Part shown: positions 4,861 through 25,645 of the stretch, piece after piece | How positions within the stretch are numbered: the stretch's first letter is position 1 | How the letters are laid out: each line of letters opens with the position of its first letter | Assembly (NCBI GenBank): GCA_902766015.1 | Contig: CACXCC010000088.1 | Coordinates: forward strand, 1-39,382 | Length of the DNA stretch: 39,382 nucleotides | DNA from: an uncultured Veillonellaceae bacterium | GTDB lineage: Bacteria > Bacillota > Negativicutes > Selenomonadales > Selenomonadaceae | Reading direction: 5' to 3' | Notes under the pieces: generated by a model | Database searches by the model: none | The model's input: only the letters and a program-made list of their open reading frames with translations | What the model was told of the DNA's origin: nothing | Program-made: the position numbers and the translations under genes

Positions 4861-6099
4861 ATGTCAAACTTTGAAAACGCAAAAGAACAGTATGCCGCTT
4901 TCGGTGTTGACGCGGAACAAGCTCTGCAGACGCTGCAGCAGGTCCGCATTTCGATGCATTGCTGGCAGGGCGATGACGTCATGGGATTTGACTCGGACGC
5001 TCTGACGGGTGGCATTGCAACGACCGGCAACTATCCGGGACGCGCACGCAACCCGGAGGAACTCATGGCGGATATCCGCAAAGCTTATTCGCTGATCCCG
5101 GGCAAACACAAACTCAACCTGCACGCTTCCTACCGCATCACGGACGAAAAAGTCGACCGCGACAAACTCGAGCCGAAACATTTCGCCGCCTGGGTTGACT
5201 TTGCCAAAGAAGAAGGCATCGGCCTTGACTTCAACCCGACGTTCTTCGGTCATGAAAAACTCGTCGACAACATGACGCTCTCCCATCCGGATAAAGCAAT
5301 CCGCGATTTCTGGATTGAACACGGCAAAGCCAGCCGTAAAATTGCCAACTACTTCGGTGAAGAGCTCGGCATCACGGCTCTCGACAACATCTGGGTTCCG
5401 GACGGCACGAAAGACGTTCCGGCCGATCGTATCGGACCGCGTGCCCGCCTGAAGGATTCCCTCGATCAGATCCTCGCCGAAAAATACGACAAGAAGAACA
5501 TGATGGATGCCGTCGAAGGCAAAGTCTTCGGTATCGGCGTTGAGTCTTATACGGTCGGCTCGCACGAATTCTACATGAATTACGCAGCGAAAAACGGCAT
5601 CATGTGCCTGCTTGACACGGGTCATTATCATCCGACGGAAGTTGTCTCCGACAAGATTTCCTCGATGCTCCTCTTCAATGACAACATCGCACTGCATGTC
5701 AGCCGTCCGGTTCGTTGGGACAGCGACCATGTCATCAAACTCGACGACGAACTCAAAGAACTCTCCGAAGAACTCGTTCGTTGCGATGCCCTGCAGAAAA
5801 CGTTCATCGGACTCGACTTCTTCGATGCTTCGATCAACCGTATCGCGGCTTGGACCGTCGGCATGCGCAACATGCAGAAAGCTCTCCTCTATGCACTCCT
5901 CACGCCGAATGATCAGCTCAAGGCTGCTCAGGACAACCGCGACTTCACGAGCGTTCTCGTCGGCCTCGAAGAGATCAAGACGCTGCCGTTCGGCGAAGTT
6001 TGGAGCGAATTCTGCCGCCGCAACAATGTTCCGGTTGACGGTCAGTGGTACCCGGTAGTAAAACAGTATGAGAACGATGTCCTCAGCAAACGTAACTGA
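4861..6099 (+). CDS. rhaA: L-rhamnose isomerase
   Basis: It interconverts L-rhamnose and L-rhamnulose, a metal-dependent aldose-ketose isomerisation in the cytoplasm. The 412 residues agree with the family (about 419 in E. coli) and the fold is a TIM barrel. Metal-ligand regions are visible as [26 protein letters not shown] and [14 protein letters not shown], which carry the expected Glu, Asp and His residues. AGGAGG precedes the ATG. It lies between rhaB and rhaD, and no frameshift or truncation is seen. Confidence 0.97.
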
Positions 6100-6134
6100 G
6101 ATTTGACGCATAGAGAAGGAAAGGTATAAACATC

Positions 6135-6953
6135 ATGGATATTTTAAATGCACCGTTTATGGAAAGTTTCAAACGTCTGACGTCAGACGCCTTCAAAAAA
6201 GGCTGGCATGAACGCAACGGCGGCAACTTGACGTACCGCGTACCGGCAGAAGAAGTCGAGTCAGTCAAAGAGTCCCTGCATCCGGCAGAACAATGGCAGC
6301 CGATCGGCAACACGGTTCCGGACCTTGCCGGCGAATATTTCCTCGTAACGGGCAGCGGCAAATACATGCGCAATGTCGAAATCGCACCGGAAAAGAACGT
6401 CGCCCTCATCGAAATTGACGCGAAAGGCGAAAATTACGCCATCCGCTGGGGCCTTGTCGACGGGGGACGTCCGACGAGCGAACTGCCGACGCATCTCGCC
6501 GCACATGAACTCAAGAAAAAAATGACGAACGGCAAAAACCGTATCATCTACCACGCACATCCGACGAACCTCATTGCTCTGACGTTCGTTCTCCCGCTCG
6601 AAGACAAAGCCTTTACGCGTGAGCTCTGGGAAATGGCAACGGAAGACCCCGTTATCTTCCCGGAAGGCATCGGCGTTGTCCCCTGGATGGTTCCGGGCGG
6701 CAAAGAAATCGCGGACGCATCCGTCAAACTGATGGAGAAATACCGCGTCGTCGTTTGGTCGCACCACGGACTCTTCGTCTGCGGCGATGACTTCGACGAA
6801 GCATTCGGCCTCATGGATACGGTCGAAAAAGCAGCCGAAATTTGCGTCAAAGTTCTCTCGATGGGCGGCAAGAAGCAGACGATTCCGCGTGACGGCTTCA
6901 TCCAGCTCGCCAAAGACTTCAACATTGACCTCAACACGGAACTTCTCGACTGA
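6135..6953 (+). CDS. rhaD: Rhamnulose-1-phosphate aldolase
   Basis: It cleaves L-rhamnulose 1-phosphate to dihydroxyacetone phosphate and L-lactaldehyde. The 272 residues match E. coli RhaD (274) and the class II aldolase/adducin fold. Zinc ligands are visible as HAHPTN (H140, H142) and the later SHHGLF histidine. An early NGGNLTYR motif is the phosphate-binding part. The gene begins 35 bases after rhaA, with GAAGGAAAGG upstream of the ATG. No lactaldehyde reductase or dehydrogenase gene is found in the window, so the fate of lactaldehyde is handled elsewhere. Confidence 0.96.
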   Translation: MDILNAPFMESFKRLTSDAFKKGWHERNGGNLTYRVPAEEVESVKESLHPAEQWQPIGNTVPDLAGEYFLVTGSGKYMRNVEIAPEKNVALIEIDAKGENYAIRWGLVDGGRPTSELPTHLAAHELKKKMTNGKNRIIYHAHPTNLIALTFVLPLEDKAFTRELWEMATEDPVIFPEGIGVVPWMVPGGKEIADASVKLMEKYRVVVWSHHGLFVCGDDFDEAFGLMDTVEKAAEICVKVLSMGGKKQTIPRDGFIQLAKDFNIDLNTELLD

Positions 6954-6984
6954 GAAACCGGAAAAGACAAGTACATAGGGAAAA

Positions 6985-7006
6985 GGGGAGCGGGAAACCG
7001 CTTTCC
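6985..7006 (+). other. Intercistronic stem-loop with GAAA tetraloop
   Basis: A nine-pair stem (two G-T wobbles) is closed by a GAAA loop, a stable GNRA type, between rhaD and the permease gene. No T run follows, so it is more likely an mRNA-stabilising or processing hairpin than a terminator. Confidence 0.5.
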
Positions 7007-7097
7007 CTGACACCTTACAAGTCGCAATAATCCGAATATAAATAAAATTCGTTCTTTTATATGTCAATTTGACACGTAAGAAAGGTGGAATCTAATC

Positions 7098-8411
7098 ATG
7101 CTTGGCGTCAAGCTGGATTATAATATGTCTCCTTGGAAGAAGACACTGATCGCCGGCCTTATCAGTTACATCGATGCCGGTTCGATCGTTGCCGGTGCAT
7201 CCGGACTCAGTATGTGGCAGGATTATCTCGGCATGAGCAGCGTCCAGATGGGCCTCCTCGCCGCACTTTCCTCCAACACGGGCGGTGCCGCAATCGGCGC
7301 GCTCATCGGCGGCCGCATCTGCGATAAGTACGGACGTAAATTCGTTTACAACTGGGCACTCCTCATTTACATGCTCGGCGTTCTCATGATCTGTCTCGCA
7401 ACGAATTATCCGATGTTCCTCCTCGGTTACGTTGTTGTCGGTCTCATGGTCGGCGCAGACGTTGTTGCCAGCTGGACATTCATTGCCGAGGAAGCACCGG
7501 CGAGAAACCGCGCAAAACACTGCGGTTCCGCCCAGATCGCCTGGATGCTCGGACCTGTCGTTGTTTTCGCCGCAGCCATTCCGCTCAACTCCATGTTCGG
7601 ACTGCTCGGTAACCGTATCATCTTTGCTCACCTCATCGTCGTTGCCGCATGGATCTGGTATCAGCGCCTGAAGATGCCGGAATCGACGGAATGGGTTGCT
7701 GCCAAGAAACGCGAAAAAGAACTGGAAGCCAAAGGCATCAAAGAACGCCGCGTCAAATATTCCGATCTCCTCCACGGCACGGCACTCAAAACGGTTCTCA
7801 TGTGCTGCGGCGTTTACACCTTCTGGAACCTCGCTGCTTCGACCAACGGATTCTTCATGCCGTACATTTACGAGCATGTCGGCAACCTCTCGAATGCCAT
7901 GTCCCTCTTTATGACCTGCCTGAACTTTGCCGTCTGCATTTTGACGACGTTCATCTTCATGTACACGGCGGACCGCTTCAACCGCCGCAAGATCTTCGCA
8001 CTGTTCTCCGGCCTCGGCGTCATCAGCTGGGTTGTTTGGACGCTTCCGGGTGACATGCTTCAGACTTGGATGCTCTTCTTCTTCACGATCGTTTGGGGCT
8101 TCTCGATGCAGCAGCAGTTCTATCAGCTTTGGAGCTCCGAACTCTTCCCGGTTCGTTACCGCGCAACGGCGCAGGGCTTCACGTTCTTCGTCACGCGCTT
8201 CTCGGCAGCAGCTTGGGGATTCCTCGTTCCGATTCTCATGGCGACAGTCGGATTCCAGGTAGCCGCATTCATCATGATCGGTTTCTGCGTCATCAGCTGG
8301 ATCGCCGGAACGTTCTTCGGCGGCGATGACCGCGGTAAAACGCTTGACGAAATCACGGCAGACCGCTACGGCGATGAAATCGACGAGAACGGTTGGCTCG
8401 TCAATAAATAA
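7098..8411 (+). CDS. MFS sugar permease, probable L-rhamnose transporter
   Basis: The protein has 437 residues and about twelve hydrophobic segments in two halves, typical of the major facilitator superfamily. The loop 2-3 signature is present as GGRICDKYGRK, and a similar TADRFNRRK follows in the second half. Its place inside the rha operon, between rhaD and rhaM, makes L-rhamnose (proton symport) the likely substrate. It is unrelated to the E. coli RhaT family, so this looks like a non-homologous replacement. AAAGGTGG precedes the ATG. A 144-base gap with a stem-loop separates it from rhaD. Specificity is inferred from context only. Confidence 0.88.
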   Translation: MLGVKLDYNMSPWKKTLIAGLISYIDAGSIVAGASGLSMWQDYLGMSSVQMGLLAALSSNTGGAAIGALIGGRICDKYGRKFVYNWALLIYMLGVLMICLATNYPMFLLGYVVVGLMVGADVVASWTFIAEEAPARNRAKHCGSAQIAWMLGPVVVFAAAIPLNSMFGLLGNRIIFAHLIVVAAWIWYQRLKMPESTEWVAAKKREKELEAKGIKERRVKYSDLLHGTALKTVLMCCGVYTFWNLAASTNGFFMPYIYEHVGNLSNAMSLFMTCLNFAVCILTTFIFMYTADRFNRRKIFALFSGLGVISWVVWTLPGDMLQTWMLFFFTIVWGFSMQQQFYQLWSSELFPVRYRATAQGFTFFVTRFSAAAWGFLVPILMATVGFQVAAFIMIGFCVISWIAGTFFGGDDRGKTLDEITADRYGDEIDENGWLVNK

Positions 8412-10694: not shown

Positions 10695-10891
10695 ACGATT
10701 TATTGGTTTTTCTTTTATGAGGATTTACTTCGGCAGCGGAACGACAAAGTTCCGACTGCTGCTCATCAAAGTGCAGGCGCGGCTGTCAAGGGATGAAACC
10801 GGATGCCGTAACTTTTCGGGCAACTGCCGCCCGAAAGGATCGGTTTTGACCTGAGATGTCCGTGTATGTATTTGTCGTAGGGGGATTTATT
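10695..10891 (+). ncRNA. Structured 5' leader of the glycogen operon, unassigned
   Basis: A stretch of about 200 bases with no gene folds into several helices. The first is CAGC-GGAAC paired with GTTCC-(bulge)-GCTG (about 10733-10762). A perfect hairpin TTTCGGGC/GCCCGAAA (10814-10821 with 10829-10836) has a seven-base loop AACTGCC. Enclosing helices are AAACCG/CGGTTT (10796-10801 with 10841-10846) and GTCA/TGAC. The hairpin loop CTGCC could also pair with GGCAG near 10732, a pseudoknot. It does not match the cobalamin, c-di-GMP-I, FMN, TPP or lysine consensus as I know them. It ends a few tens of bases before the glgC ribosome site, so control of translation is conceivable. Confidence 0.5.
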
Positions 10892-12046
10892 ATGAGAAAG
10901 ACAGAATGCTTAGCAATGATTCTTGCTGGCGGTCAGGGCAGCCGTCTCGGCGCCTTGACGAAGAAGATCGCTAAACCGGCTGTACCGTTTGGCGGTAAAT
11001 ATCGTATTATCGACTTCCCGCTCAGTAACTGCGCGAATTCCGGTATCGACAAAGTCGGTGTTCTGACGCAGTATCGTCCGCTGGAACTGCACAACTATCT
11101 TGCATCCGGCAGCGCATGGGACCTCGATAAACGCGACGGCGGTGTCTTCATTCTTCCGCCGTATGCCCGTGAAAAAGGTGCGGACTGGTACCGCGGCACG
11201 GCTGACGCGATTTATCAGAACCTGAATTTCATCGATCTCGCCGATCCGGATTACGTTCTGATTCTTTCCGGCGACCATATTTACACGATGGATTATTCCT
11301 GGATGCTCGAAGCGCATAAACGCAACAAGGCAGATGCTACGATCGGCGTTTTCGAAGTTCCCTGGGACGAAGCACCGCGCTTCGGCATTATGAATACGGC
11401 AAAAGACGGCCGTGTCGAAGAATTCGAGGAAAAACCGGCTAAACCGAAGAGCAACCTCGCTTCGATGGGTATTTACATCTTTAATAAAGAATTCCTGAAA
11501 AAATATCTGGAAGATGACGCGAAAGATCAGACGTCAAGCCATGACTTCGGTAAAAATATTATTCCGCAGATGCTCAAAGATGGCGCACGTCTCTTTACGT
11601 ATGCCTTCCAGGGTTACTGGAAAGACGTCGGAACGATCGAAAGCCTCTGGCAGGCCAACATGGACCTGCTGCAGGATGAGCCGCCGTTCGAACTCCACGG
11701 TGAATGGCGTATCCGTTCCTCGAATCCGCCGCTTCCGCCGCATTATATCGGCAAGGATGCCAAAGTCAAAAATGCGATGGTCAGCGAAGGCTCCATGGTC
11801 CTCGGTGAAGTCGAAAACTCCGTAATCTTCTCGGGCGTTACGATCGGAAAAGGCGCCAAAGTCAAGAATTCGGTTGTTATGCCGGGTGCCGTTATCGGTG
11901 AAAATGCCTCCGTCGATTATGCAATCCTCGCCCAGAGAAGCGAAATCGCTGCCGGCGCCGAAGTTGCAGGCGAAAAAGGTGCGATTACGGTCGTAGCCGA
12001 AGGCGAAACGATTGAAAAAGCCGCAGGAAGCAAACAGGCCGGCTGA
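10892..12046 (+). CDS. glgC: Glucose-1-phosphate adenylyltransferase (ADP-glucose pyrophosphorylase), catalytic subunit
   Basis: It makes ADP-glucose from glucose 1-phosphate and ATP, the committing step of glycogen synthesis. The 384 residues show the nucleotidyltransferase motif [21 protein letters not shown] at the N terminus, the [11 protein letters not shown] segment that binds the metal and sugar nucleotide, the FEEKP motif, and a C-terminal left-handed beta-helix with hexapeptide repeats. The start at 10892 follows AGGGGGATTT; an ATG at 10856 lies inside the leader and has no ribosome site. glgD follows 31 bases on. In Firmicutes, GlgC works with GlgD as a heterotetramer. Confidence 0.96.
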
Positions 12047-12077: not shown

Positions 12078-13178
12078 GTGAAAACAGTAATGGGGATTAT
12101 CAATCTTCAGGAAGATAATAAACTGATTCGTGAATTGGCGGAGCACCGTGCAGTCGAGTCGATCCCGTTTGCCGGCCGTTACCGTCTCATTGACTTTTCG
12201 CTGTCGAGCATGGTCAATTCCGACATCCCGAATGTCGCTGTCATGCTCCCGGATCGCCCACGTTCCATCCTTGACCACCTGCGTTCCGGTAAAGACTGGG
12301 ATCTGGCGCGTCGTCATGAAGGTATGTTCTATCTGCCGTCCTCCACGGAGGAAGGCCGTGAAGGCGATCTGAAGAATTTCTACTTTAACCTTGACTTTGT
12401 TGAGCACAGTGCCGAAAAATACGTTCTGCTCGCGTCAGGCAGCTTTGTCTACAACATTGACTTCACCGAACTGCTTCGTTTCCATCAGAATACGGAAGCA
12501 AACGTTACGATGATGTATCATACGGTATCCGGCGAGCAGACGGGCAGCAACATCGTCATTGACGTTGCGGAAAACGGCCTCGTCAAAGACATCGCGGAAA
12601 AACCGGTTGTCTATGACGGCTCGAAAGCCAGCATGGGCGTATATCTCTTCGATAAAGGCGTCTTCGTAGAAATGGTCCGCTATGCATACGAACACGGCGG
12701 ATCGGATCTCATCCTTGACGGCATTATCCGCCGCGCCGATGTATATAACATCTACGCTTGCGAACACGACGGTTACGTTTCCCACGTGGATTCGACGGCT
12801 GCTTATTATCAGGCAAACATGGATATCCTGCAGCCGGAAGTCTGGAGCGAACTCTTCATGGGTGAGCATCCGGTTTACACGAAGACACTGGACAACGTTC
12901 CGGTCGAGTATAAAGCAACGGCATCGGTCAAGAATTCCCTGATTGCGAACGGCTGCATCATCCGCGGCGAAGTCGAGAACAGTATCCTGTTCCGCGGCGT
13001 CACGGTCGGTAAAGGCGTCAAGATCAAGAATTCGATCGTTATGCAGAAGGGCGACATCCAGGATGGCTCGCTCATTGAAAATGTAATTTGTGATAAGAAT
13101 GTTGTGATCAGCAAAGACAAGTGGCTGAAAGGCGCACCGAACTATCCGCTGATCGTAGCCAAAAATGCGGTAATTTAA
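12078..13178 (+). CDS. glgD: GlgD, regulatory subunit of ADP-glucose pyrophosphorylase
   Basis: The 366-residue homologue of GlgC lacks the glycine-rich catalytic loop at its N terminus: where GlgC has GGQGSRL, this has INLQEDNKLI. That is the hallmark of the GlgD subunit, which is poorly active alone and activates GlgC in the GlgCD complex. The SIPFAGRYRLIDF stretch and the C-terminal hexapeptide beta-helix are conserved. The start is GTG at 12078. It lies between glgC and glgP in one operon. Confidence 0.95.
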   Translation: MKTVMGIINLQEDNKLIRELAEHRAVESIPFAGRYRLIDFSLSSMVNSDIPNVAVMLPDRPRSILDHLRSGKDWDLARRHEGMFYLPSSTEEGREGDLKNFYFNLDFVEHSAEKYVLLASGSFVYNIDFTELLRFHQNTEANVTMMYHTVSGEQTGSNIVIDVAENGLVKDIAEKPVVYDGSKASMGVYLFDKGVFVEMVRYAYEHGGSDLILDGIIRRADVYNIYACEHDGYVSHVDSTAAYYQANMDILQPEVWSELFMGEHPVYTKTLDNVPVEYKATASVKNSLIANGCIIRGEVENSILFRGVTVGKGVKIKNSIVMQKGDIQDGSLIENVICDKNVVISKDKWLKGAPNYPLIVAKNAVI

Positions 13179-13280
13179 CATTGGAGGCGGCCGCTGTAAT
13201 GAGGTGGATGCATCGTTCAAGGCGCAGAGACTGAGTTACGGCGGCTTTTGTGTTTATTGGGAAACAAGGGAGTGTTACTT

Positions 13281-15740
13281 TTGGTCAGAAAAACGAGAAA
13301 ACAGCAGGATAAAAATTTCGATATACTGAAAGCAACCCTGAAGAAACGTTTCGTTGACACGGCGCACATCATGTGGGGCCGTGAACTCAAAGATTTGACG
13401 AAAAACGAAATTTATCAGACGGTTGCAGCTACGGCAAAACAGTATATTTCCGAAAACTGGATCAGTACCAACAAGGCATATGCGGAAAATCAGTCGAAGC
13501 AGGTCTACTACTTCTCGATCGAGTTTCTGCTCGGCCGTCTGCTGAAGTCAAACCTCATGAACCTCGACATCGAGGAAGCACTCAAAGAGGTTCTCGCGGA
13601 TTTTGACCTGAACCTCGACAAGACGTTTGAGGAAGAACCGGATGCCGGTCTCGGCAACGGCGGACTCGGCCGTCTCGCGGCCTGCTTCATCGATTCGATG
13701 GCAGCACATCGTCTTCCGGCTCACGGTTGCAGTATCCGTTATCAGTACGGTCTGTTTGAGCAGAAAATCATCGAAGGCAACCAGGTTGAAATTCCGGATA
13801 ACTGGCTGAAAAACGGTTTTGCATGGGAATACCGCAAACCGGATAAAGCCGTTGACGTCAAATTCTACGGCAATGCCTACATGAAGAAACTCGAGGACGG
13901 CAGTCTGAAGCTCGTTCACGAACATCCGATGACAGTCATGGCCGTTCCGTACGATGTACCGGTTGTCGGTTACCATACGCGCACGGTCAACACGCTGCGT
14001 CTTTGGAATTCCGAAGTCAACCGTGACTTCTCCGATTACGGCACGTTGACGCCGGAACAGCTGCGTCAGAAAACGGAATACCGTCATTTCGTCGAGAGCA
14101 TCACGCATTATCTTTATCCGGATGACAGCACGGAAGACGGCCGCCGTCTCCGTCTCATTCAGGAATACTTCTTTGTTTCGGCCGGCGTACAGAGTATCGT
14201 CCGCCACTATAAGAAAGTCGGCATGGATATCCGTGATTTCGCGGAGAAGATTGCCATCCATATCAACGATACGCATCCGGCATTATGCGTTGCCGAACTC
14301 ATGCGTATCCTCGTCGATGAAGAAGGCCTCGAATGGTCGGATGCATGGGCGATTACGAAAAACACGATCGCTTACACGAACCACACGATCATGCCGGAAG
14401 CGCTGGAGAAATGGCCGATTGACATGTTCAAGCCGCTTCTGCCGCGTATCTATATGATTATCGACGAGATCAACCGCCGCTGGCTCATTGACGTTCGTAA
14501 ACGTTATCCGAACAACGAGGACAAAGTTCGCGAAATGTCGATCATTCAGGACGGCATGGTTCATATGGCGCGCCTTGCCATCGTCGGCAGCCACAGCGTC
14601 AACGGCGTTGCCGCAATCCATACGGGTATTCTCGAAAGAGAAACGCTGCGTCCGTTCTATGAATACAATCCGTCGATGTTCAACAACAAAACGAACGGCG
14701 TAACGCATCGCCGCTGGCTCATGGGCGCAAATCCGGAACTCGAGGAGCTCATTGACTCGACGGTCGGAAGCCGTCGCTGGCACCGTCATCCGGAATTGCT
14801 CGAAGCACTCAATAAATACGTAGATGACCGCCCGCTCCAGCAGGGACTCGACCGTGTTAAACGTCTGCGTAAACAGGCTCTTGCCAATTACGTTCAGGAA
14901 CACAACGGCATTACGGTCAACCCGGATTCGATCTTTGACATTCAGGTTAAACGTATCCATTCGTACAAACGTCAGCTCATGAATATCCTGCATATCATGT
15001 ATCAGTATCACGAGCTCAAGACGAATCCGGACTTCAAGATGACGCCGACGACGTATTTCTTCGGCGGCAAGGCAGCTCCGGGTTACTACATCGCGAAGGA
15101 AACGATCCGCCTGATCAACGCCGTTGCCAAGAAAGTCAATGCCGACAAGGACACGAACGGCACGCTCAAAGTCATCTTCATCGAGAACTTCGGCGTTTCG
15201 ATCGGCGAACTCGTTTATCCGGCGGCTGACGTCAGTGAACAGATTTCGACGGCTTCGAAAGAAGCTTCCGGTACCGGCAACATGAAATTCATGATGAACG
15301 GCGCGATCACGCTCGGCACGCTCGACGGTGCAAACGTTGAGATTCAGGAAGCATGCGGTCCGGAAAACTGCGTCATCTTCGGCCTCAAGGCAGAAGAAGT
15401 CATCAACTACTATGCAACGGGCACGTACCGCGCATGGGATGAATACAATCAGAATCCGCGCGTCCGTCTCGTCCTGAATCAGCTCGTTGACGGTTCGTTC
15501 GGCGATTTCCGTTCGCTCTATGACTATCTGCTGCGCGACAACGACGAGTTCTTCATCCTCAAGGACTTTGACGCATACGCTGAGGCACATAAAGAAATTA
15601 TGCGCCGTTACGCAGACCGTACGGGCTGGCTCCGTTCCGCAGCGATGAACATTGCGAACTCCGGACGCTTCTCTTCGGACCGTACGATTGACGAATACGC
15701 AAACGAAATCTGGAAGATTAAACCGGTTATCATCTCCTGA
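13281..15740 (+). CDS. glgP: Glycogen/starch (maltodextrin) phosphorylase
   Basis: This enzyme releases glucose 1-phosphate from the non-reducing ends of glycogen, using pyridoxal phosphate. It has 819 residues, the usual GT35 length. The N-terminal catalytic part carries DAGLGNGGLGRLAACF; the C-terminal part carries the cofactor lysine K669 in EASGTGNMKF and the NGAITLGTLDGANVEI stretch. The start was set at TTG 13281, eight bases after AAGGGAG; an in-frame TTG at 13248 has no such site and would add eleven residues. It sits between glgD and glgB, so synthesis and breakdown genes are co-transcribed. Confidence 0.95.
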   Translation: MVRKTRKQQDKNFDILKATLKKRFVDTAHIMWGRELKDLTKNEIYQTVAATAKQYISENWISTNKAYAENQSKQVYYFSIEFLLGRLLKSNLMNLDIEEALKEVLADFDLNLDKTFEEEPDAGLGNGGLGRLAACFIDSMAAHRLPAHGCSIRYQYGLFEQKIIEGNQVEIPDNWLKNGFAWEYRKPDKAVDVKFYGNAYMKKLEDGSLKLVHEHPMTVMAVPYDVPVVGYHTRTVNTLRLWNSEVNRDFSDYGTLTPEQLRQKTEYRHFVESITHYLYPDDSTEDGRRLRLIQEYFFVSAGVQSIVRHYKKVGMDIRDFAEKIAIHINDTHPALCVAELMRILVDEEGLEWSDAWAITKNTIAYTNHTIMPEALEKWPIDMFKPLLPRIYMIIDEINRRWLIDVRKRYPNNEDKVREMSIIQDGMVHMARLAIVGSHSVNGVAAIHTGILERETLRPFYEYNPSMFNNKTNGVTHRRWLMGANPELEELIDSTVGSRRWHRHPELLEALNKYVDDRPLQQGLDRVKRLRKQALANYVQEHNGITVNPDSIFDIQVKRIHSYKRQLMNILHIMYQYHELKTNPDFKMTPTTYFFGGKAAPGYYIAKETIRLINAVAKKVNADKDTNGTLKVIFIENFGVSIGELVYPAADVSEQISTASKEASGTGNMKFMMNGAITLGTLDGANVEIQEACGPENCVIFGLKAEEVINYYATGTYRAWDEYNQNPRVRLVLNQLVDGSFGDFRSLYDYLLRDNDEFFILKDFDAYAEAHKEIMRRYADRTGWLRSAAMNIANSGRFSSDRTIDEYANEIWKIKPVIIS

Positions 15741-15788: not shown

Positions 15789-18062
15789 GTGAAATTATCC
15801 GAACTCAGTGATTTCGACCTCTATCTCTTCCATCAGGGGACGAATTATCACGCTTACGAAATGCTCGGTGCTCATTTCATCGAGCAGGACGGCAAAAAAG
15901 GCGTACGTTTCGCCGTCTGGGCTCCGCATGCCCAGTCCGTCAGTGTCGTCGGTGATTTTAACCATTGGGATGTCAATGCTGCCCCGATGACAAAAGTGCA
16001 GGACGGTGAAGTCTGGCAGGTTTTCATCGAGGGGCTGCAGGAAGGCGAGAATTACAAATACGCGATCGAGCCGCAGGGAGGCGGGCAGCGCCTCATGAAA
16101 GCCGATCCGTACGGATTCTATGCCGAAAAGAAACCGAACACGGCATCCCGTCTCTATGACCTCAATCATTACAATTGGGGCGACGGCGAGTGGTATGAAC
16201 AGAAGAAAAAAGAATCGTCCTATGAGCGCCCGATGCTCATTTACGAAGTTCATGCCGGTTCTTGGCGCCGCACCCCGGACGGAGAATATCTCTCCTATCG
16301 CGACCTTGCCGATTCGCTCATCAGTTACGTCAAAGATATGCATTACACGCATATTGAGTTTATGCCGCTCTGCGAGCATCCGTTTGACGGTTCCTGGGGT
16401 TATCAGGCAACGGGATATTATGCCGTCACGAGCCGTTACGGTTCGCCGGATGATTTCCGTTATCTCGTCGAAACGGCACATAAAAACGGCATCGGCATCA
16501 TCATGGACTGGGTTCCGGGCCATTTCTGCAAGGATGAACAGGGCCTGCGTCAATTTGACGGTCAGACGCTTTATGAGTCCGACAACGTACAGCGCGCCGA
16601 AAACTGGGATTGGGGCACGACGAACTTTGACTACGGCCGTACCGAAGTCCAGAGTTTCCTGATTTCCAATGCGATGTTCTGGTATGAAGAGTTCCATATT
16701 GACGGACTGCGCATCGACGCTGTCGCCAATATGCTCTATCTGAACTACGGCCGCAAAGACGGTGAGTGGACGCCGAACAAATACGGCGATACGGGCAACC
16801 TTGAGGCGATGGATTTCCTCAAGAAACTCAACGAAACCATTTTCAAATATCATCCGCAGGGACTCATGATCGCCGAGGAATCGACGTCATGGCCTCTGAT
16901 TTCCAAACCGGTCTACATGGGCGGTATGGGCTTCAACTACAAGTGGAACATGGGCTGGATGAACGATATGCTCGATTATATGAGCCTCGATCCGATCTAC
17001 CGCAAATGGAACCACGATAAATTGACGTTCTCGTTCATGTATGCCTTCTCCGAGAACTTTGTCCTGCCGCTGTCGCATGACGAAGTCGTTCACGGCAAAT
17101 GTTCACTTATCAACAAAATGCCGGGCGATTATTGGCAGAAGTTCGCGGGCCTGCGTGCATTCTTCGCGTACTGGATGGCTCATCCGGGCAAAAAGCTGCT
17201 CTTTATGGGCGGCGAGTTCGGTCAGTTCATCGAATGGAAATACGACGACAGCCTTGATTGGCATTTGCCGCAGAAATATCCGATGCACGAGAAGATGCAG
17301 CATTATTCGCAGACACTCAATCAGTTCTACAATGACAACAAGCCGCTCTGGCAGGTTGACTTTGACTGGAACGGTTTCCAGTGGATCGACTGCAATGATA
17401 ACGAAAACAGCGTCATTTCCTTCATCCGCAAGGCGGAGGATCCGAATGACAGCCTCATCGTCATCTGCAACTTCACACCGGAAGTCCGCCACGGTTATCG
17501 TGTCGGCGTACCGGCAAAAGGCAGCTACGTCGAGGTTCTCAATACCGATGCCGAAGAATTCGGCGGCAGCGGCGTACGCAATGAAGGCGAACTCTTCACG
17601 GAAGATGTCCGCTGGCATGACCGCAACCAGTCGATCGTTTTGACCCTTCCGCCTCTGGCTGTTGTTTATCTGCGTCAGAAAGACCAGGCTGACGCCCGGG
17701 TGCACCGCTTTGCCAACCGTCAGGATCTGACGGTCAAAGGCTATGAAGCCGGAGCTGCGGCCGAAAAAGTCGTCGCCACGGCGGCAGAAGCGCCCGAAGC
17801 ACCGAAACCGCGCCGCCGCGGTCGTCCGAAGATGACGGAAGAACAAAAAGCCGCCGCTCGCGTCAAACGCGAAGCGGAAAAGCAGGCAAAAATTGACGCA
17901 TTGCTCGCCCAAGGGTTTACCCTCGAAGAGGCGAAAGAAAAGATCAAACGCCGCCGTAAAACGACGAAAAAGACGACGACGACAGCTAAGAAACCGAAAC
18001 GCACGACGACAAGAAAGCGCACGACGAAAACCACCGCGCGCAAGGCAGTCGGCGAAGAGTAA
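15789..18062 (+). CDS. glgB: 1,4-alpha-glucan branching enzyme with a basic AT-hook-like tail
   Basis: It transfers a cut alpha-1,4 chain to a 6-hydroxyl to make branches. Domains in order: CBM48 (residues about 20-110, RFAVWAPHA and VVGDFNHWD), the GH13 barrel with nucleophile D310 in GLRIDAVANML, AEEST at 362-366 and the third acid in LSHDEVVHGK, then the C-terminal beta domain ending near residue 630. The usual enzyme stops there. This one goes on for about 125 residues: an Ala/Glu linker, PKPRRRGRPK at 672-681 (an AT-hook core RGRP in basic context), a charged helical stretch, then a Lys/Arg/Thr-rich end (about 719-757). The extension is in frame and ends at a single stop 66 bases before glgA. 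The tail's role is unknown. Confidence 0.95.
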   Translation: MKLSELSDFDLYLFHQGTNYHAYEMLGAHFIEQDGKKGVRFAVWAPHAQSVSVVGDFNHWDVNAAPMTKVQDGEVWQVFIEGLQEGENYKYAIEPQGGGQRLMKADPYGFYAEKKPNTASRLYDLNHYNWGDGEWYEQKKKESSYERPMLIYEVHAGSWRRTPDGEYLSYRDLADSLISYVKDMHYTHIEFMPLCEHPFDGSWGYQATGYYAVTSRYGSPDDFRYLVETAHKNGIGIIMDWVPGHFCKDEQGLRQFDGQTLYESDNVQRAENWDWGTTNFDYGRTEVQSFLISNAMFWYEEFHIDGLRIDAVANMLYLNYGRKDGEWTPNKYGDTGNLEAMDFLKKLNETIFKYHPQGLMIAEESTSWPLISKPVYMGGMGFNYKWNMGWMNDMLDYMSLDPIYRKWNHDKLTFSFMYAFSENFVLPLSHDEVVHGKCSLINKMPGDYWQKFAGLRAFFAYWMAHPGKKLLFMGGEFGQFIEWKYDDSLDWHLPQKYPMHEKMQHYSQTLNQFYNDNKPLWQVDFDWNGFQWIDCNDNENSVISFIRKAEDPNDSLIVICNFTPEVRHGYRVGVPAKGSYVEVLNTDAEEFGGSGVRNEGELFTEDVRWHDRNQSIVLTLPPLAVVYLRQKDQADARVHRFANRQDLTVKGYEAGAAAEKVVATAAEAPEAPKPRRRGRPKMTEEQKAAARVKREAEKQAKIDALLAQGFTLEEAKEKIKRRRKTTKKTTTTAKKPKRTTTRKRTTKTTARKAVGEE

Positions 18063-18128: not shown

Positions 18129-19568
18129 ATGAAGGTTCTTTATGTAGCATCCGAAGCAGTTCCTTTTATCAAAACCGGCGGACTCGCCGACGTAGCAGGT
18201 TCCCTGCCGAAAGCCCTTGTGGAAAAAGGCATTGACGCACGCGTCATCGTTCCGAAATACGGCAAGATTTCCGAAGAATTCCGTCAGAAAATGACGCATG
18301 TCTATGACGGTGAGATCCCCGTTGCGTGGCGTAAGAAATTCGTCGGTATTGACGCCATCGAGTATGAAGGCGTTACGTACTACTTCGTCGACAACGAAGA
18401 GTATTTCAATCGTGAAGGCTGCTACGGCTACGACGATGATGCCGAACGTTTCTCGTTCTTCTGCCGTGCCGTTCTGAATGTCCTGCCGGCCCTCGATTTT
18501 TGGCCGGATATCATTCATACGAACGACTGGCATACGGCACTCGTCAATGTTCTGCTCAAGATTGAGCATCAGGGTGACGAGCGTTACGAGAAAATCCGTA
18601 CGGTATTCTCGATTCACAACCTCAAATACCAGGGCGTATTCGGCAAGAACGTCATGAGCGATGTTCTCGGTATCGACTGGAAATATTTCAACAACGGCGA
18701 CCTCGAGTTCTACGATGCCGTCAACTTCATGAAAGCCGGCATCATTTACACGGATTTCGTGTCTACGGTCAGCAAATCGTATGCGGAAGAAATCCAGTAT
18801 CCGTATTACGGCGAGCATCTTGACGGACTGCTCCGCAGCCGCAGCAATGACCTGTTCGGTATTGTCAACGGCATCGACTATTCGAAGTACAATCCGGAGA
18901 CGGATAAAGATCTCTTTGAGACGTACAATGCCGATAATCCGCTGTACCACAAACGCAACAACAAAGAGAAACTGCAGGCAATGCTCGGACTGCCGGTCAA
19001 TCGCCGTACGCCGATGGTTGCTCTCGTTTCCCGTCTTGTCGAAGCAAAAGGCCTCGACCTCATCGTTCGCATCATGGACGAAATCCTGCAGCATGAGGAC
19101 ATTCAGTTCGTTCTGCTCGGCACGGGTGATCATGAATACGAAGAATGGTTCAAGGGCCTTGCATGGCGTTTCCCGACGAAAGTATCGGCTAACATCCGCT
19201 TCTCGAATGCGCTTGCGCAGAAGATGTATGCGGCTTCCGATATCTTCCTGATGCCGTCGAAGTATGAACCGTGCGGTATCGGCCAGCTCATCGCACTTCG
19301 TTACGGTTCCATTCCTCTCGTTCGTGAAACGGGCGGCCTGAAGGATACGATCATTCCGTACAACAAATACACGAAAACGGGCAACGGTTTCCGCTTCTCC
19401 GCGTACAATGCTCACGAAATGATGTATGCCCTCAAACGTGCACTCAGCGTCACGGAGAACACGGAAGAATGGCGTCAGCTCGTCAAGAATGCGATGCATA
19501 CGGATTACAGCTGGAATAAATCGGCCGATGAGTACCGTCAGCTTTATGAGAGATTACTTGCAAAGTAA
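18129..19568 (+). CDS. glgA: Glycogen synthase (ADP-glucose type)
   Basis: It extends alpha-1,4 glucan chains from ADP-glucose. The 479 residues match bacterial GT5 enzymes. The N-terminal KTGGLADVAGSLPKAL motif binds the ADP-glucose phosphate, HTNDWHTALVNVLL and FSIHNLKYQG follow, and the C-terminal Rossmann half shows ALVSRLVEAKGLDL and PSKYEPCGIGQLIALRYGSIP with the conserved Glu of the E-x7-E motif. GAGGAGG lies upstream of the ATG. A perfect 18-base palindrome follows the stop. Confidence 0.96.
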   Translation: MKVLYVASEAVPFIKTGGLADVAGSLPKALVEKGIDARVIVPKYGKISEEFRQKMTHVYDGEIPVAWRKKFVGIDAIEYEGVTYYFVDNEEYFNREGCYGYDDDAERFSFFCRAVLNVLPALDFWPDIIHTNDWHTALVNVLLKIEHQGDERYEKIRTVFSIHNLKYQGVFGKNVMSDVLGIDWKYFNNGDLEFYDAVNFMKAGIIYTDFVSTVSKSYAEEIQYPYYGEHLDGLLRSRSNDLFGIVNGIDYSKYNPETDKDLFETYNADNPLYHKRNNKEKLQAMLGLPVNRRTPMVALVSRLVEAKGLDLIVRIMDEILQHEDIQFVLLGTGDHEYEEWFKGLAWRFPTKVSANIRFSNALAQKMYAASDIFLMPSKYEPCGIGQLIALRYGSIPLVRETGGLKDTIIPYNKYTKTGNGFRFSAYNAHEMMYALKRALSVTENTEEWRQLVKNAMHTDYSWNKSADEYRQLYERLLAK

Positions 19569-19637: not shown

Positions 19638-22600
19638 ATGCTGGATAGAAATCAGGTCAAGCATGATTCCCAGAACGTTTACTACCGTTCGATTCCCGGA
19701 GCGGTAGAAGCGGGAACGAGGCTGACCTTGGGCCTGCGGGTCTCGACGAGCGAAGAGATTCGTCAGGTGCTGGTGCGTTTCTGGCGCGACAAGGTCGGCG
19801 AGAAACTCGTGTCCATGCAGACGAACGATCCGCCGGAAGCAGAGTCCCGTTTTTACAGCGTGACGTTTGATATCCCGGATCAGGGATGTCTTCTCTGGTA
19901 TTACTTTATCCTGACAACCGCAGACGGGACGATGTACTACGGCAACAACGCCGAACAGCTCGGCGGCCGCGGTGACCTGTACAATCACGTACCGGCATCG
20001 TTCCAGATTACGGTTTACGATAAAGGAGCGAAGACACCGGACTGGATGAAGCATGCGGTGATGTATCAGATTTTCCCGGACCGCTTTTGTCGCGAGGGGA
20101 ATACCCTCGTGAAGAAAAAGGGGGCCGTCATCCATGCCGACTGGTCGGATGATCCCTGCTACTACAAGGATCCGGATACGAAGGAAATCGTCGCTTATGA
20201 CTTCTTCGGCGGCAATTTAAAAGGCATCGAGAAAAAGCTCGATTATTTAAAAGATCTCGGGATCACACTGATTTACCTCAATCCGGTTTTCGAATCGGAG
20301 AGCAATCATCACTACGATACCGGCGATTATTTAAAAATTGATCCGATGCTCGGCACAAATGAGGATTTCCGTCATCTCGTCCAGGCAGCGAAAATGAAGG
20401 GAATCCGGATCATTCTCGACGGTGTGTTCAGCCACACGGGCAGCAACAGCCGTTATTTTAACCGGATGGGTCAATATGCGACGATCGGCGCGTTCCAGTC
20501 GAAGGATTCGCCGTATTACGAATGGTACAATTTCCGGAATTTCCCGTATGACTATGAATGCTGGTGGAACTTTGACACGCTGCCGGACGTGATGGAGACG
20601 ACGCCGTCGTATATGGACTTTATTATCCGTTCCGAGGACAGCGTCCTGCATCACTGGATGAAGGAAGGCATTTCCGGCTGGCGTCTTGACGTCATTGACG
20701 AGTTGCCGGCGGCGTTCTCGCAGGCGTTTTATAAGGAACTGAAGCATACGAATCCCGATGCCGTCATGCTCGGCGAAGTCTGGGAAGATGCGTCAAATAA
20801 AGTCGCTTACGGCGTCCCGCGCGAATACCTCTGCGGGCATGAAATGGATTCGGCGATGAACTATCCGTTCCGCAAGATCCTGTTTGACTTCCTGCTCGGG
20901 AATGTGGACGGCAAGCTCGCGATGCGTCAGTTCGAGTCACTGCGCGAGAATTATCCGAAACAGAATTTCTATGCGATGATGAACCTCATCAGCAGTCATG
21001 ACGTCCAGCGCGCGATTACGGTGCTCGGTGAAGCCGCGTATTACGACGGCATGCCGGCGATCGAACAGTCGCGGTCAAGACTTGACAATGACCATTACAA
21101 TCTCGGTATGGCGCGCCTGCTCCTCGCCGCTTTGTGGCAGATGACGTATCCGGGCGTTCCGAGTGTGTACTACGGCGACGAAATCGCGATGCAGGGCTTT
21201 AAAGACCCGTATAACCGCCGCCCGTATAACTGGGAACACGGGGATACGTTTGTGCGCGGCTGTTTCCGTCAGCTCATCCGTACGCGCAATGAAAATATCG
21301 TTTTGCAGACAGGTGAATTGATTCCGCTTTACGGACAGGGAAATATCCTCGCGTTTGCACGCGTTGTCCGCGGCGGGCGTGATTATTTCGGCGAAGCGGC
21401 CAAGGACGCCGTCTTCATTACGGCGGTCAACCGCAGCAAGACGGAAACGGAAACGTTCTCGATGGATGTCAGCGATTTTGCCGACGGCCGTTTTACGAAC
21501 GTCTTCCATCCGAATAAACATGTCGAAGTCCGTCAGGGCAGGCTCGAACTGCGCCTTAAACCGCTCAACGGCATGCTGCTCCGCCTCGATAATCCGGAGA
21601 GACATTATCCTCGTCAGGCCGGCGTTCTGCTTGCGCCGACGTCACTGCCGTCCAAATACGGCATCGGCGATCTCGGCAAGGCTGCGTATCAGTTTATCGA
21701 TTTCCTGAAGGATGCCGGACAGAAAATCTGGCAGGTTCTCCCGCTCGGTCCGGTCGGTTACGGATATTCGCCGTATCAGTCGGCGTCGTCGTTTGCGGGC
21801 AATCCGCTCCTCATTGACATTAGCGAACTCATCGAGCGCGGTTGGCTGCCGGAGTCGGAAGCACGTCTTTCGTATGCCGGTGCAAGCTCGTTCATTGACT
21901 TTGAACGCGTGCAGAACTTTAAGTCGGACTGCCTGCGCAAAGCGTACAAAAAATTTGTGCGCTACGCGGACATTGACGACGAATATCAGGCATTCTGCCG
22001 CAAAGAAGCGTACTGGCTGGACGATTACGCGCTCTATGAAGCCGCAAAGAAAGAATTTGACGGTGACGCATGGTATCAGTGGCCGGACGAGATCAAGACA
22101 CGTCAGCCGCAGGCGCTTGCGAAACTGCGCGATCGTCTCGAGCTCAATATCGGCCTCGTGAAGTTTGTCCAGTACCTCTTCCATCGTCAGTGGACGCGTC
22201 TGCATGACTATGCGAAGGAACAGGGGATCCGTATCCTAGGCGATATTCCGATTTTCGTTTCGCCGGACAGTGCGGATGTCTGGGCGAACCAGCATCTCTT
22301 TGACCTGAACCCGGACGGAACGGCAAAAACCGTTGCCGGCGTACCGCCCGATTACTTCAGTGCGACGGGTCAGCTCTGGGGCAACCCGCAGTACCGCTGG
22401 GATGTCATGAAGGAAGAGCATTACGCATGGTGGATCTCTCGTCTGCGGAAACTCTACGAATGGGTTGACATCATCCGCATCGACCATTTCCGCGGGTTCG
22501 AGTCCTATTGGGAAGTTGACGGCAAGGCGAAGACCGCGATCAACGGCCGCTGGCTCAAAGGTCCGGGCAAGGAATTCTTTGATACGGTGAAAGAAGCGCT

Positions 22601-23105
22601 CGGCGGCGAAGATCTGCCGATCGTTGCCGAAGACCTCGGCATTATCACGGAAGAAGTCGACAAACTGCGTGATGCCTGCGGTTTCCCGGGCATGAAGGTT
22701 TTGCAGTTTACGCTGCACTTCAACGAGGCAGGCCGTTTCGGTTTCGTCGCGCCGGAGAACAGCATCGTTTACACCGGCACGCACGACAACAACACGGTTG
22801 TCGGCTGGTACAATCAGGACATTGACGCACCGACGCGTGCGGCTGTTGCGCATATGCTTCGTGCCGATTCGCGTCGCCCGCGTGATATCGCGCAGCGTCT
22901 CGTCGAGTTTGCCTACGCTTCGGCGGCCCGCACGGTTATCGTTCCGATGCAGGACCTTTTGGGCCTCGACGAACGCGCCCGCATGAACACGCCGAACACC
23001 GTCGGCCTCAACTGGAAATGGTGCCTCAAACCGGAGCAGATCTATAACATCGATCCTTCGCGCTTAAAGAAACTCTGCGAGCGCTACGACCGCACCGGCG
23101 ATTGA
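19638..23105 (+). CDS. GH13 alpha-glycosidase (neopullulanase-like) fused to 4-alpha-glucanotransferase (GH77)
   Basis: Two enzymes in one chain of 1155 residues. Residues about 1-125 are a CBM34-like beta domain. Residues about 130-650 are a GH13 barrel and beta domain with D351 (GWRLDVIDE), E380 (LGEVWED) and D455 (SSHDVQR), of the neopullulanase/cyclomaltodextrinase kind. Residues about 655-1155 are GH77 (MalQ), with D949 in IRIDHFRGFESYWEV as nucleophile and E998 in VAEDLGIITEEV as acid/base. Together they would trim and disproportionate glucans left by the phosphorylase, doing the work of a debranching system. Both active sites look intact. No signal peptide is visible, so it acts in the cytoplasm. 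GGAGAGGGAG precedes the ATG. No separate glgX or malQ lies in the window. Confidence 0.93.
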   Translation: MLDRNQVKHDSQNVYYRSIPGAVEAGTRLTLGLRVSTSEEIRQVLVRFWRDKVGEKLVSMQTNDPPEAESRFYSVTFDIPDQGCLLWYYFILTTADGTMYYGNNAEQLGGRGDLYNHVPASFQITVYDKGAKTPDWMKHAVMYQIFPDRFCREGNTLVKKKGAVIHADWSDDPCYYKDPDTKEIVAYDFFGGNLKGIEKKLDYLKDLGITLIYLNPVFESESNHHYDTGDYLKIDPMLGTNEDFRHLVQAAKMKGIRIILDGVFSHTGSNSRYFNRMGQYATIGAFQSKDSPYYEWYNFRNFPYDYECWWNFDTLPDVMETTPSYMDFIIRSEDSVLHHWMKEGISGWRLDVIDELPAAFSQAFYKELKHTNPDAVMLGEVWEDASNKVAYGVPREYLCGHEMDSAMNYPFRKILFDFLLGNVDGKLAMRQFESLRENYPKQNFYAMMNLISSHDVQRAITVLGEAAYYDGMPAIEQSRSRLDNDHYNLGMARLLLAALWQMTYPGVPSVYYGDEIAMQGFKDPYNRRPYNWEHGDTFVRGCFRQLIRTRNENIVLQTGELIPLYGQGNILAFARVVRGGRDYFGEAAKDAVFITAVNRSKTETETFSMDVSDFADGRFTNVFHPNKHVEVRQGRLELRLKPLNGMLLRLDNPERHYPRQAGVLLAPTSLPSKYGIGDLGKAAYQFIDFLKDAGQKIWQVLPLGPVGYGYSPYQSASSFAGNPLLIDISELIERGWLPESEARLSYAGASSFIDFERVQNFKSDCLRKAYKKFVRYADIDDEYQAFCRKEAYWLDDYALYEAAKKEFDGDAWYQWPDEIKTRQPQALAKLRDRLELNIGLVKFVQYLFHRQWTRLHDYAKEQGIRILGDIPIFVSPDSADVWANQHLFDLNPDGTAKTVAGVPPDYFSATGQLWGNPQYRWDVMKEEHYAWWISRLRKLYEWVDIIRIDHFRGFESYWEVDGKAKTAINGRWLKGPGKEFFDTVKEALGGEDLPIVAEDLGIITEEVDKLRDACGFPGMKVLQFTLHFNEAGRFGFVAPENSIVYTGTHDNNTVVGWYNQDIDAPTRAAVAHMLRADSRRPRDIAQRLVEFAYASAARTVIVPMQDLLGLDERARMNTPNTVGLNWKWCLKPEQIYNIDPSRLKKLCERYDRTGD

Positions 23106-24007: not shown

Positions 24008-25645
24008 TTGAAAAAACGTATCGTGGCAGTCCTGCTGGCTGTTGCCGTCTCGTTGACGGTCATGCCGCAGCAGACATTTGCCCGCCATAAGGACGAAAAC
24101 CATGTGGAGAAGATTGTTTACGTGCCGCATGATAATCGGCCGATTTCCGATAAACAGACTGTCGAAGTCATCAAGAAGATGGGCTACGATGTCGTGGTGC
24201 CGCCGGATGACGTACTCGGTGACCGTACCCGCCTCGGCAATCCGGACGAGCTTTGGTCCTGGCTCGAGACGAATACGCCGGATGCCGATGCCGCCGTTAT
24301 TTCGTCGGACTCGATGCTCTACGGCAGTCTCGTCGGTTCCCGCAAACACGATTACAGTCAGAAAGAAATCCTCGAGCGCGCGAGCCGCTTTAAGAAACTG
24401 CGCAAGGACAACCCGAAAACGAAGCTTTATGTCTTCGGATCCATCATGCGCACGCCGCGTACGGGCGAGGCTTCCGGTCATGAGGAGCCGGGATATTACC
24501 GCAACTACGGTGCCGATATTTTCCGCTACACGGTCCTGCGCGACAAAGAGGAAATGGAAGGCCTCGGCCGCCGCGAACGCAAGGAATACGATTTCCTGCA
24601 GCGCCTGATCCCGCAAAAGGATCTCAAGGACTGGATGGGGCGCCGCAATAAGAATTATGCGGCCAATGAATACATGATCGATCTCACGCGCGGCAACACG
24701 TTTGATTATTTCGTTCTCGGCCGCGACGATAATGCGCCGTATTCGCAGACGCATCTCGAGAGCCGTCATTTGACGGAAGCCGGCAGGGATCTCGGTAAAA
24801 CGCGGTTCCAGAATATGGCCGGTATCGACGAAATCGGAATGCTGATGCTGACGCGTGCCGTCAACGATCTGCACCGTGATGTGCCGTTTGTCTATGTCCG
24901 TTACAACTGGGGACGCGGCGAGAATACGGTGCCGTCGTATTCCGATGAGAAGATCAGTGATTCGATTAACTCGGCGATTGTCGCCGCGGGCGGCATGGCC
25001 GTGCGTTCGCCGGAAAAAGCCGACCTCGTTTTGACGGTCAACACGAACCCGAACGGCAAGACGTACGAGGCCAATGACCGCGCCAATAACGGCACGCCGC
25101 GCGAAGGAACGAAGTATTTCATCGATATCGTGAATGATTACGTCAGCCGCGGCTATCCGGTCGCGATCGCCGATATCGCGTACGCGAACGGTTCGGATAA
25201 TGCGCTCATGGAGCAACTGAAAAATTACGGTCTGCTCTTCAAGATTCGCGCCTACGCGGGCTGGAATACGCCGACGAACAGCTCAGGCTTTGTCATCGGC
25301 GAGGGTATGCTGACGAATTATATGACGAGCGACGCCGTCGATGACCTGCTGCTCACGCGTTATCTTGACGATTGGGCTTATCAAGCCAACGTCCGCAACA
25401 CCGTAGCCCGCCAGCTCACCTGGCTCCGCGGTGACGGCGTTTACGGCAGCCTTGACACGAAGAACGATGCTGTCGCGTACCGTTCGACGCGGCTTTTGAC
25501 CCGTTTTGTCGAGGACAATCTCCCGCCGATTACGTCGCTTGATTACATTCAGGTGACGTTCCCGTGGAATCGTATGTTCGAGTCGGATATTCTTCATTCG
25601 GCAGAACCGATTGAGGATGTGCCGACGTTCGAACTGAAAAAATAA
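24008..25645 (+). CDS. DUF4127 family exported protein
   Basis: The 545-residue protein has a Sec signal (KKRIVAVLLAVAVSLTVMPQQTFA, cleavage after TFA). The mature N terminus YVPHDNRPISDKQ matches the YVPLDDRPVN-type signature of DUF4127 proteins, and RDDNAPYSQTH near residue 240 is another conserved block. The family has no settled biochemical role; the Asp/His/Arg-rich motifs suggest hydrolase-like chemistry, which is inference. The start is TTG at 24008 with AAAGGGG about 12 bases upstream; no better start exists. It is followed by two large palindromic repeats. Confidence 0.85.
   Translation: MKKRIVAVLLAVAVSLTVMPQQTFARHKDENHVEKIVYVPHDNRPISDKQTVEVIKKMGYDVVVPPDDVLGDRTRLGNPDELWSWLETNTPDADAAVISSDSMLYGSLVGSRKHDYSQKEILERASRFKKLRKDNPKTKLYVFGSIMRTPRTGEASGHEEPGYYRNYGADIFRYTVLRDKEEMEGLGRRERKEYDFLQRLIPQKDLKDWMGRRNKNYAANEYMIDLTRGNTFDYFVLGRDDNAPYSQTHLESRHLTEAGRDLGKTRFQNMAGIDEIGMLMLTRAVNDLHRDVPFVYVRYNWGRGENTVPSYSDEKISDSINSAIVAAGGMAVRSPEKADLVLTVNTNPNGKTYEANDRANNGTPREGTKYFIDIVNDYVSRGYPVAIADIAYANGSDNALMEQLKNYGLLFKIRAYAGWNTPTNSSGFVIGEGMLTNYMTSDAVDDLLLTRYLDDWAYQANVRNTVARQLTWLRGDGVYGSLDTKNDAVAYRSTRLLTRFVEDNLPPITSLDYIQVTFPWNRMFESDILHSAEPIEDVPTFELKK

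Follow-up and report, generated by a model that had tools for sequence, protein, structure and literature searches.

What is the function of a long, basic, histone-like tail on a glycogen branching enzyme? This question is raised by the glgB gene of the window, by which we mean the whole stretch of 39,382 nucleotides analyzed here. It comes from a gut/rumen-type bacterium, as contig 88 in a 144-contig, 2.04 Mb genome, whose nearest named relative among those listed is Mitsuokella, Selenomonas being also among the nearest. The gene belongs to a glg operon in which five genes follow each other in order on the plus strand: glgC (10856-12046) and a glgD-like gene (12078-13178), both encoding nucleotidyltransferases, glgP for the phosphorylase (13248-15740), glgB (15789-18062) and glgA for the glycogen synthase (18129..19568), all with Pfam support. 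When the C-termini of the other glg proteins of the window were read, none carried a basic tail, and GlgA is tail-less here. Directly after glgA, a gene (19638-23105) encodes a 1155-aa protein that combines an alpha-amylase (GH13) with a GH77 4-alpha-glucanotransferase, and downstream of the glg genes lies a gene for a DUF4127 protein that seems to have a signal peptide (24008-25645).

The glgB frame starts with GTG and encodes 757 residues. Its catalytic body, residues 1-632 (15789..17684, plus strand), was delimited from Pfam, invariant residues and PDB alignments. It contains a CBM48 domain at residues 26-109 (PF02922, 87.6 bits), the GH13 amylase domain (PF00128, 62.7 bits) and, as the last one, Alpha-amylase_C at residues 532-629 (PF02806, 103.5 bits), every one above its cut-off. 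R308, D310, E363, H430 and D431 are invariant among 27 aligned sequences, and the GH13 catalytic Asp/Glu/Asp is kept as D310, E363 and D431. Matching PDB chains, from branching enzymes and related proteins, reach query residue 630 at most (32 of 32). Since both the Pfam domains and the PDB alignments end by 629-630, residues 633-757 are a true C-terminal extension and the protein is, judging from its sequence, a normal branching enzyme with a tail added to it.

A preliminary description of this locus had noticed about 125 in-frame residues past the normal end of GlgB, and this is confirmed: translation, composition, low pLDDT values and the tails of relatives define an in-frame extension of 125 residues at 17685..18059 on the plus strand. 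The interval given at the time, 17684-18062, does contain the tail but started one base early, 17685 being correct. The extension has a charge of +20 (36 Lys+Arg, 16 Asp+Glu) versus -32 for the core. No Pfam family matches it, which rules out a fused domain of a known family. When the genome was searched by BLAST with the tail as query, no other copy appeared, the one weak match having an E-value of 0.74. On the plus strand, the tail comprises a proximal linker with a VKGYE motif (17718..17743, from the alignment of tail starts), an AT-hook-like core, PKPRRRGRPK, at residues 672-681 (17802..17831, from the translation), two basic helices predicted by AlphaFold2 at residues 684-707 and 712-728 (TEEQKAAARVKREAEKQAKIDALLA...FTLEEAKEKIKRRRK; 17838..17972), and a terminal stretch of 38 residues (17946..18059). 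As had been described, this last stretch consists mostly of Lys, Arg and Thr (30 of 38 by composition); the repeats of the tail are of the KTT/RTT type. In the AlphaFold2 model, pLDDT is low at 637-679 and 727-757, and about 80-94 across most of 681-720, the region of the helices. The input was limited to 27 sequences (the window and the fetched loci), a shallow alignment that gave a mean pLDDT of 64 for the body. Because the catalytic body is only moderately well modelled, we use the model merely as a hint of tail disorder and of the helices.

We then asked whether the relatives carry similar tails. GlgB was present in 166 of the 189 genomes of the family at the cut-off used, and C-terminal ends were read in 107 closed reading frames. 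Tails of at least 60 residues (60-257 aa) were found in 73 of these 107 proteins, from 17 genera; as genomes with long open frames were over-represented among those fetched, this proportion does not estimate the family frequency. Each of the 73 has a net positive charge (+3 to +38, median +24), while the cores of the tailed proteins range from -19 to -36 (median -30). Their pooled composition (A 22%, K 22%, T 15%, and only 0.5% for the aromatic residues plus Cys, F+W+Y+C), together with the low pLDDT in the window's protein, agrees with the initial comparison to bacterial histone H1-like tails, which are likewise long, disordered, rich in Lys, Ala and Thr/Pro, nearly free of aromatic residues, and net positive. 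The length beyond the core ranges between about 0 and 257 aa inside this one family, and some tails, such as that of G183, are obvious tandem repeats. GlgB ends within 17 residues in those members of g4, g7, g13, g14 and g29 that were read; the tail is therefore not essential. Genus g3 mostly retains just about 45 residues of the proximal linker. The linker motif VKGYE recurs as V(R/K/A)GHE or similar, that is V-[KR]-G-[HYF]-E-like, in several genera, and in its strict form in 19 of 20 members of g17, 2 of 3 of g11, both of g30 and the single one of g15. The preliminary description had reckoned with a tail missing from relatives and traced to a frameshift, or to the assembly; what we observed is an in-frame tail that recurs in independent assemblies. 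The fragmentation of the window's genome into 144 contigs is the one point that could suggest a frameshift, a chimeric assembly or a wrong stop, no other support having been found, and a like architecture exists in independent assemblies, including the single-contig genomes G078 and G029. With the tail in frame, and with assemblies from other genera bearing similar tails at the same point, we consider an artefact as ruled out for all practical purposes.

The segment PKPRRRGRPK had been proposed as an AT-hook core. Its position and motif are right, an RGRP core with flanking basic residues being present (PRRRGRPK, 674-681), but the Pfam AT_hook family (PF02178) is silent, with no match in GlgB at E <= 1, nor at this site in a search of the genome at E <= 10. 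AT-hook-like core is thus a description of a motif and not a family match. RGRP cores are typical of minor-groove binding to AT-rich DNA. A [KR]GRP[KR] core arises in 0.2% of 200,000 shuffles of the window's tail; in the family, [KR]GRP[KRP] is found in 12 of the 73 long tails, in 5 genera, when 0.10 tails are expected from shuffled compositions, a more than 100-fold excess. After the core, g1, g11 and g26, as well as two members of g22, share a similar stretch, (M)T(E/A)E(E/Q)KAxA, and the sequence after the hook resembles that of the window in G010, G089, G090 and G025. In addition, the GlgB tail of G030 (L206) carries KRQRRKLTEEEKAARREKMAANRAAK(K/E)A(V/A)GIAPK twice in near-identical form, a repeat that resembles the post-hook stretch of the window with RQRRK replacing RGRPK. 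An AT-hook as the defining feature is ruled out by its presence in only these 12 of 73 tails: the common denominator of the long tails is a polycationic disordered tail.

Is such a tail maintained by selection? Codon comparison of within-genus GlgB pairs gave tail dN/dS values of about 0.05-0.6 in close pairs with few gaps (0.08 for G188/G186, 0.05 for G204/G206, 0.17 for G010/G089 and 0.62 for G029/G175), 0 in one nearly identical pair, and about 0.1-0.4 in wider pairs, against 0.005-0.1 in the core; many tails show an elevated dS as well, and slippage or misalignment may depress these apparent ratios. The tail thus appears constrained yet fast-evolving, mostly below the neutral rate and not tightly conserved.

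Lys-rich GlgB tails also occur in clostridia labelled Ruminococcus, Acutalibacter, Gallacutalibacter, Anaeromassilibacillus and others (named GTDB species), and were absent from the listed loci of Bacillus, Proteobacteria and Acidobacteria. In a GlgB tree, the Oscillospirales-type clostridial proteins form a branch of their own, separated from the Selenomonadaceae by tail-less groups, and the tail/no-tail states need at least 15 changes on this quick tree. The strongest observation concerns the gene next door: tails of the same kind are found on the glycogen synthase. In two Succiniclasticum loci, GlgA is extended at its C-terminus by 191 and 211 aa (L045:5449-7530 and L090:1626-3716) and GlgB has only 38 extra residues; the GlgA tail runs from an acidic linker through KKTTAKKTT-like repeats to APKKRGRKPG (end PKKRGRKPG...). 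In another family of the class (G374:C94), the GlgA tail is 98 aa long and the GlgB tail 0. An Oscillospiraceae locus (L104, 7649 onward) has a GlgB without a basic tail and a GlgA with N-terminal KPKKTTRSSSGTRKS...TRKKK, its basic stretch KPKKTTRSSSGTRKSASAAKSEPAKTTRKKK being N-terminal as well. Both enzymes are tailed in L049 (GlgA at 5260-7557, C-terminal tail) and G326 (C36; L314 and L315 for G374 and G326). Most of the tailed GlgAs thus accompany a GlgB with a short tail or none. However, a swap of the tail from GlgB to GlgA is not a rule, because most genomes of the window's family with a tail-less GlgB also lack a GlgA tail, as judged by open-frame lengths, and the evidence for it comes from about four lineages. 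Tails on GlgA cannot be accounted for by something particular to the 3' end of glgB; they can by a putative need of glucan-building enzymes for a polycationic tail. The presence of the tail, the conservation of its charge, its recurrence and the GlgA tails of the same kind are established at the sequence level.

To place these tails among the other proteins of the cell, we sampled 447 kb of the window's own genome (about 22% of it) and 400, 320 and 321 kb of three tailed relatives (roughly 11-17% of each), about 1.49 Mb in total. Comparable Lys-rich ends were borne by TopA (G078), two DEAD-box helicases (G183), RNase R (G062) and RodZ-type linkers; TopA, the helicases and RNase R were named from sequence, and the remaining listed matches looked out of frame or marginal. 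A general Lys-rich habit of the proteome is not supported by these four samples, in which such tails seem to belong mainly to nucleic-acid enzymes and glycogen enzymes. The N-terminal segment of TopA, before the VESP motif, is basic and Lys-rich in all 10 genomes with a readable start. Among the TopA loci collected (L281-L291, 11 genomes), some also have a basic C-terminus. The strict KKT[AT][AT]KK pattern, searched at the DNA level, has few matches, and those outside GlgB lie in the N-terminus of a TopA and in a sequence resembling ribosomal protein L1. Two further proteins were noticed: an FtsA-like one in G025 (C9, L224), with a disordered-looking N-terminal stretch that includes KPARRGRPRKN and AKKTMTRKPKAAKPK, and a transposase-like one in G024 (C40:7173-7259, L223), with two AT-hooks above the Pfam cut-off, about 7 kb from glgB.

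We propose that the tail is a selected polycationic anchor that ties a glycogen-making enzyme, and with it the nascent glycogen, to nucleic acid, most likely the nucleoid, and we give this proposal about an even chance of being right. The body of GlgB would hold the glucan through CBM48 and the active site, and the tail would touch a polyanion through many weak contacts. This polyanion is most probably nucleic acid, the chromosome in particular; in the window's protein, one AT-hook-like core and two basic helices may assist these contacts. GlgB would then seed or hold glycogen at the nucleoid surface. Alternatively, the anchor might keep granules dispersed, share them between daughter cells, or locate synthesis near the nucleoid. 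The earlier reading, a histone-like tail with an AT-hook that binds nucleic acid or another polyanion, fits all the findings and is partly supported. We infer binding to nucleic acid, which three points make the likeliest partner: the kind of proteins that otherwise bear such tails, the presence of RGRP cores, and the examples set by PhaF, PhaM and AlgP. Less certain are the choice of the nucleoid over RNA as that partner and granule positioning as the purpose. More tentatively, and with somewhat less than even confidence, we suggest a glycogen-nucleoid tether carried by polymer-making enzymes, which would have grown repeatedly in at least two distant lineages, glycogen being nucleated on the chromosome and divided with it. 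In Escherichia coli, proteins and ribosomes are kept out of glycogen condensates, and GFPs with charges between -30 and +25 distribute alike (PMC12706056), which indicates that charge alone need not place a protein. Our prediction is that a strong multivalent tail could alter this picture.

Other explanations have to be weighed against such an anchor. The tail might bind a different polyanion or surface: polyphosphate or phosphorylated glucan, an acidic phospholipid, or one of the glg operon's enzymes if acidic. It might also act as a charged brush that spaces glycogen particles. Charge is indeed the conserved feature, PPK1 is encoded in the window's own genome and in four other tailed genomes, and the case of AlgP indicates that such tails can accompany polyphosphate granules (PMC9239181). 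On the other hand, a mere brush needs no repeated RGRP core, and PPK1, the one kinase type searched for, was not found in the tested tailed genomes of g9, g17, g22 and g26, a single-contig one included. With PPK1 missing from several tailed genomes, polyphosphate is weakened as a general partner, and we regard this group of explanations as unlikely, while giving it real weight. The tail could also bind RNA or ribosomes and not DNA, which would leave the glycogen enzymes in the midst of polysomes or make RNA the scaffold of a condensate. Polycationic disorder cannot tell DNA from RNA, and similar Lys-rich ends occur on DEAD-box helicases and RNase R in two tailed genomes. However, TopA bears such tails too, and the RGRP cores, which are of the type that binds the minor groove of AT-rich DNA, are enriched over composition, so that we consider RNA rather improbable as the main target.

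Finally, the tail could have no function at all, K/A/T codon repeats growing by replication slippage at the gene end and being merely tolerated. Drift of this kind would be in line with lengths of about 0 to 257 aa within the family, with tails that are tandem repeats, as in G183, and with several tail-less genera. It would hardly produce a net positive charge in 73 of 73 long tails, a dN/dS below 1 or RGRP cores at more than 100-fold their expectation, nor would it single out two glycogen enzymes and few other sampled genes, mostly those of nucleic-acid enzymes. We therefore judge drift very unlikely.

The placing and sharing-out of bacterial glycogen have been little studied: a 2025 review of organelle positioning treats PHB and polyphosphate and leaves glycogen unmentioned (PMC13052382). 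According to recent work, glycogen condensates rearrange the entire E. coli cytoplasm (PMC12706056). If our proposal is true, a DNA-gripping tail on a glycogen-building enzyme provides a molecular handle on glycogen placing, and glycogen becomes the third storage polymer under the PhaF/AlgP principle; the presence or absence of the tail among relatives, and its appearance on GlgA, constitute natural controls. We found no description of GlgB or GlgA with AT-hook, Lys-rich or disordered tails in open-access papers, and the available text of a Chem. Rev. overview of alpha-glucan enzymes does not mention nucleoid, DNA-binding or disordered.

How does the tailed GlgB compare with known systems? It shares with ordinary bacterial GlgB (GH13 + CBM48) the body 1-632, the catalytic residues and the glg operon context, and differs by the tail, no counterpart of which was seen in the 32 PDB chains, solved structures stopping at the position of residue 630. 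With the AT-hook (HMGA) motif, PF02178, it has in common an RGRP core flanked by basic residues, but the window's site escapes the profile, and the core is missing from most long tails of the family. Actinobacterial topoisomerase I offers another enzyme with a Lys-repeat C-terminal tail, which is linked to high DNA processivity (PMC7398561); its substrate, however, is DNA, whereas the tailed GlgB acts on glucan. A further likeness is with granule proteins. PhaF of Pseudomonas putida and PhaM of Cupriavidus necator have, like the tailed GlgB, a C-terminal histone-like domain on a storage-granule protein; this domain binds DNA without sequence specificity, the other end holds the PHA/PHB granule, and granules are thereby held along the nucleoid (PMC13052382). 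AlgP of Pseudomonas aeruginosa is granule-associated, and its H1-like disordered tail is required for normal granule number and spacing: without the KPAA tail, the number and placing of polyphosphate granules are disturbed (PMC9239181). The differences are equally clear. The granule-binding part of PhaF and PhaM does not make polymer, whereas in the window the tail sits on the polymer-making GlgB (in relatives, also on GlgA) and the polymer is glycogen. AlgP has a helical N-terminal domain, a polyphosphate granule and no domain in common with GlgB. The repeats of the GlgB and GlgA tails are KKTTAKK/KRTTTRK-like, versus the KPAA type of PhaF and AlgP, of which the window's tail has none; a phasin-type or AlgP N-terminal granule domain was not found either, the GlgB domains alone scoring above the Pfam cut-off. 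Because these defining repeats and the granule domain are absent, the protein falls outside the PhaF/AlgP family, and we suggest that it works like PhaF, PhaM and AlgP by analogy, without being their homologue. A histone-like tail on a storage-granule protein is thus a known arrangement; as far as we could find, what is new here is a glycogen-making enzyme as its carrier and glycogen as the polymer.
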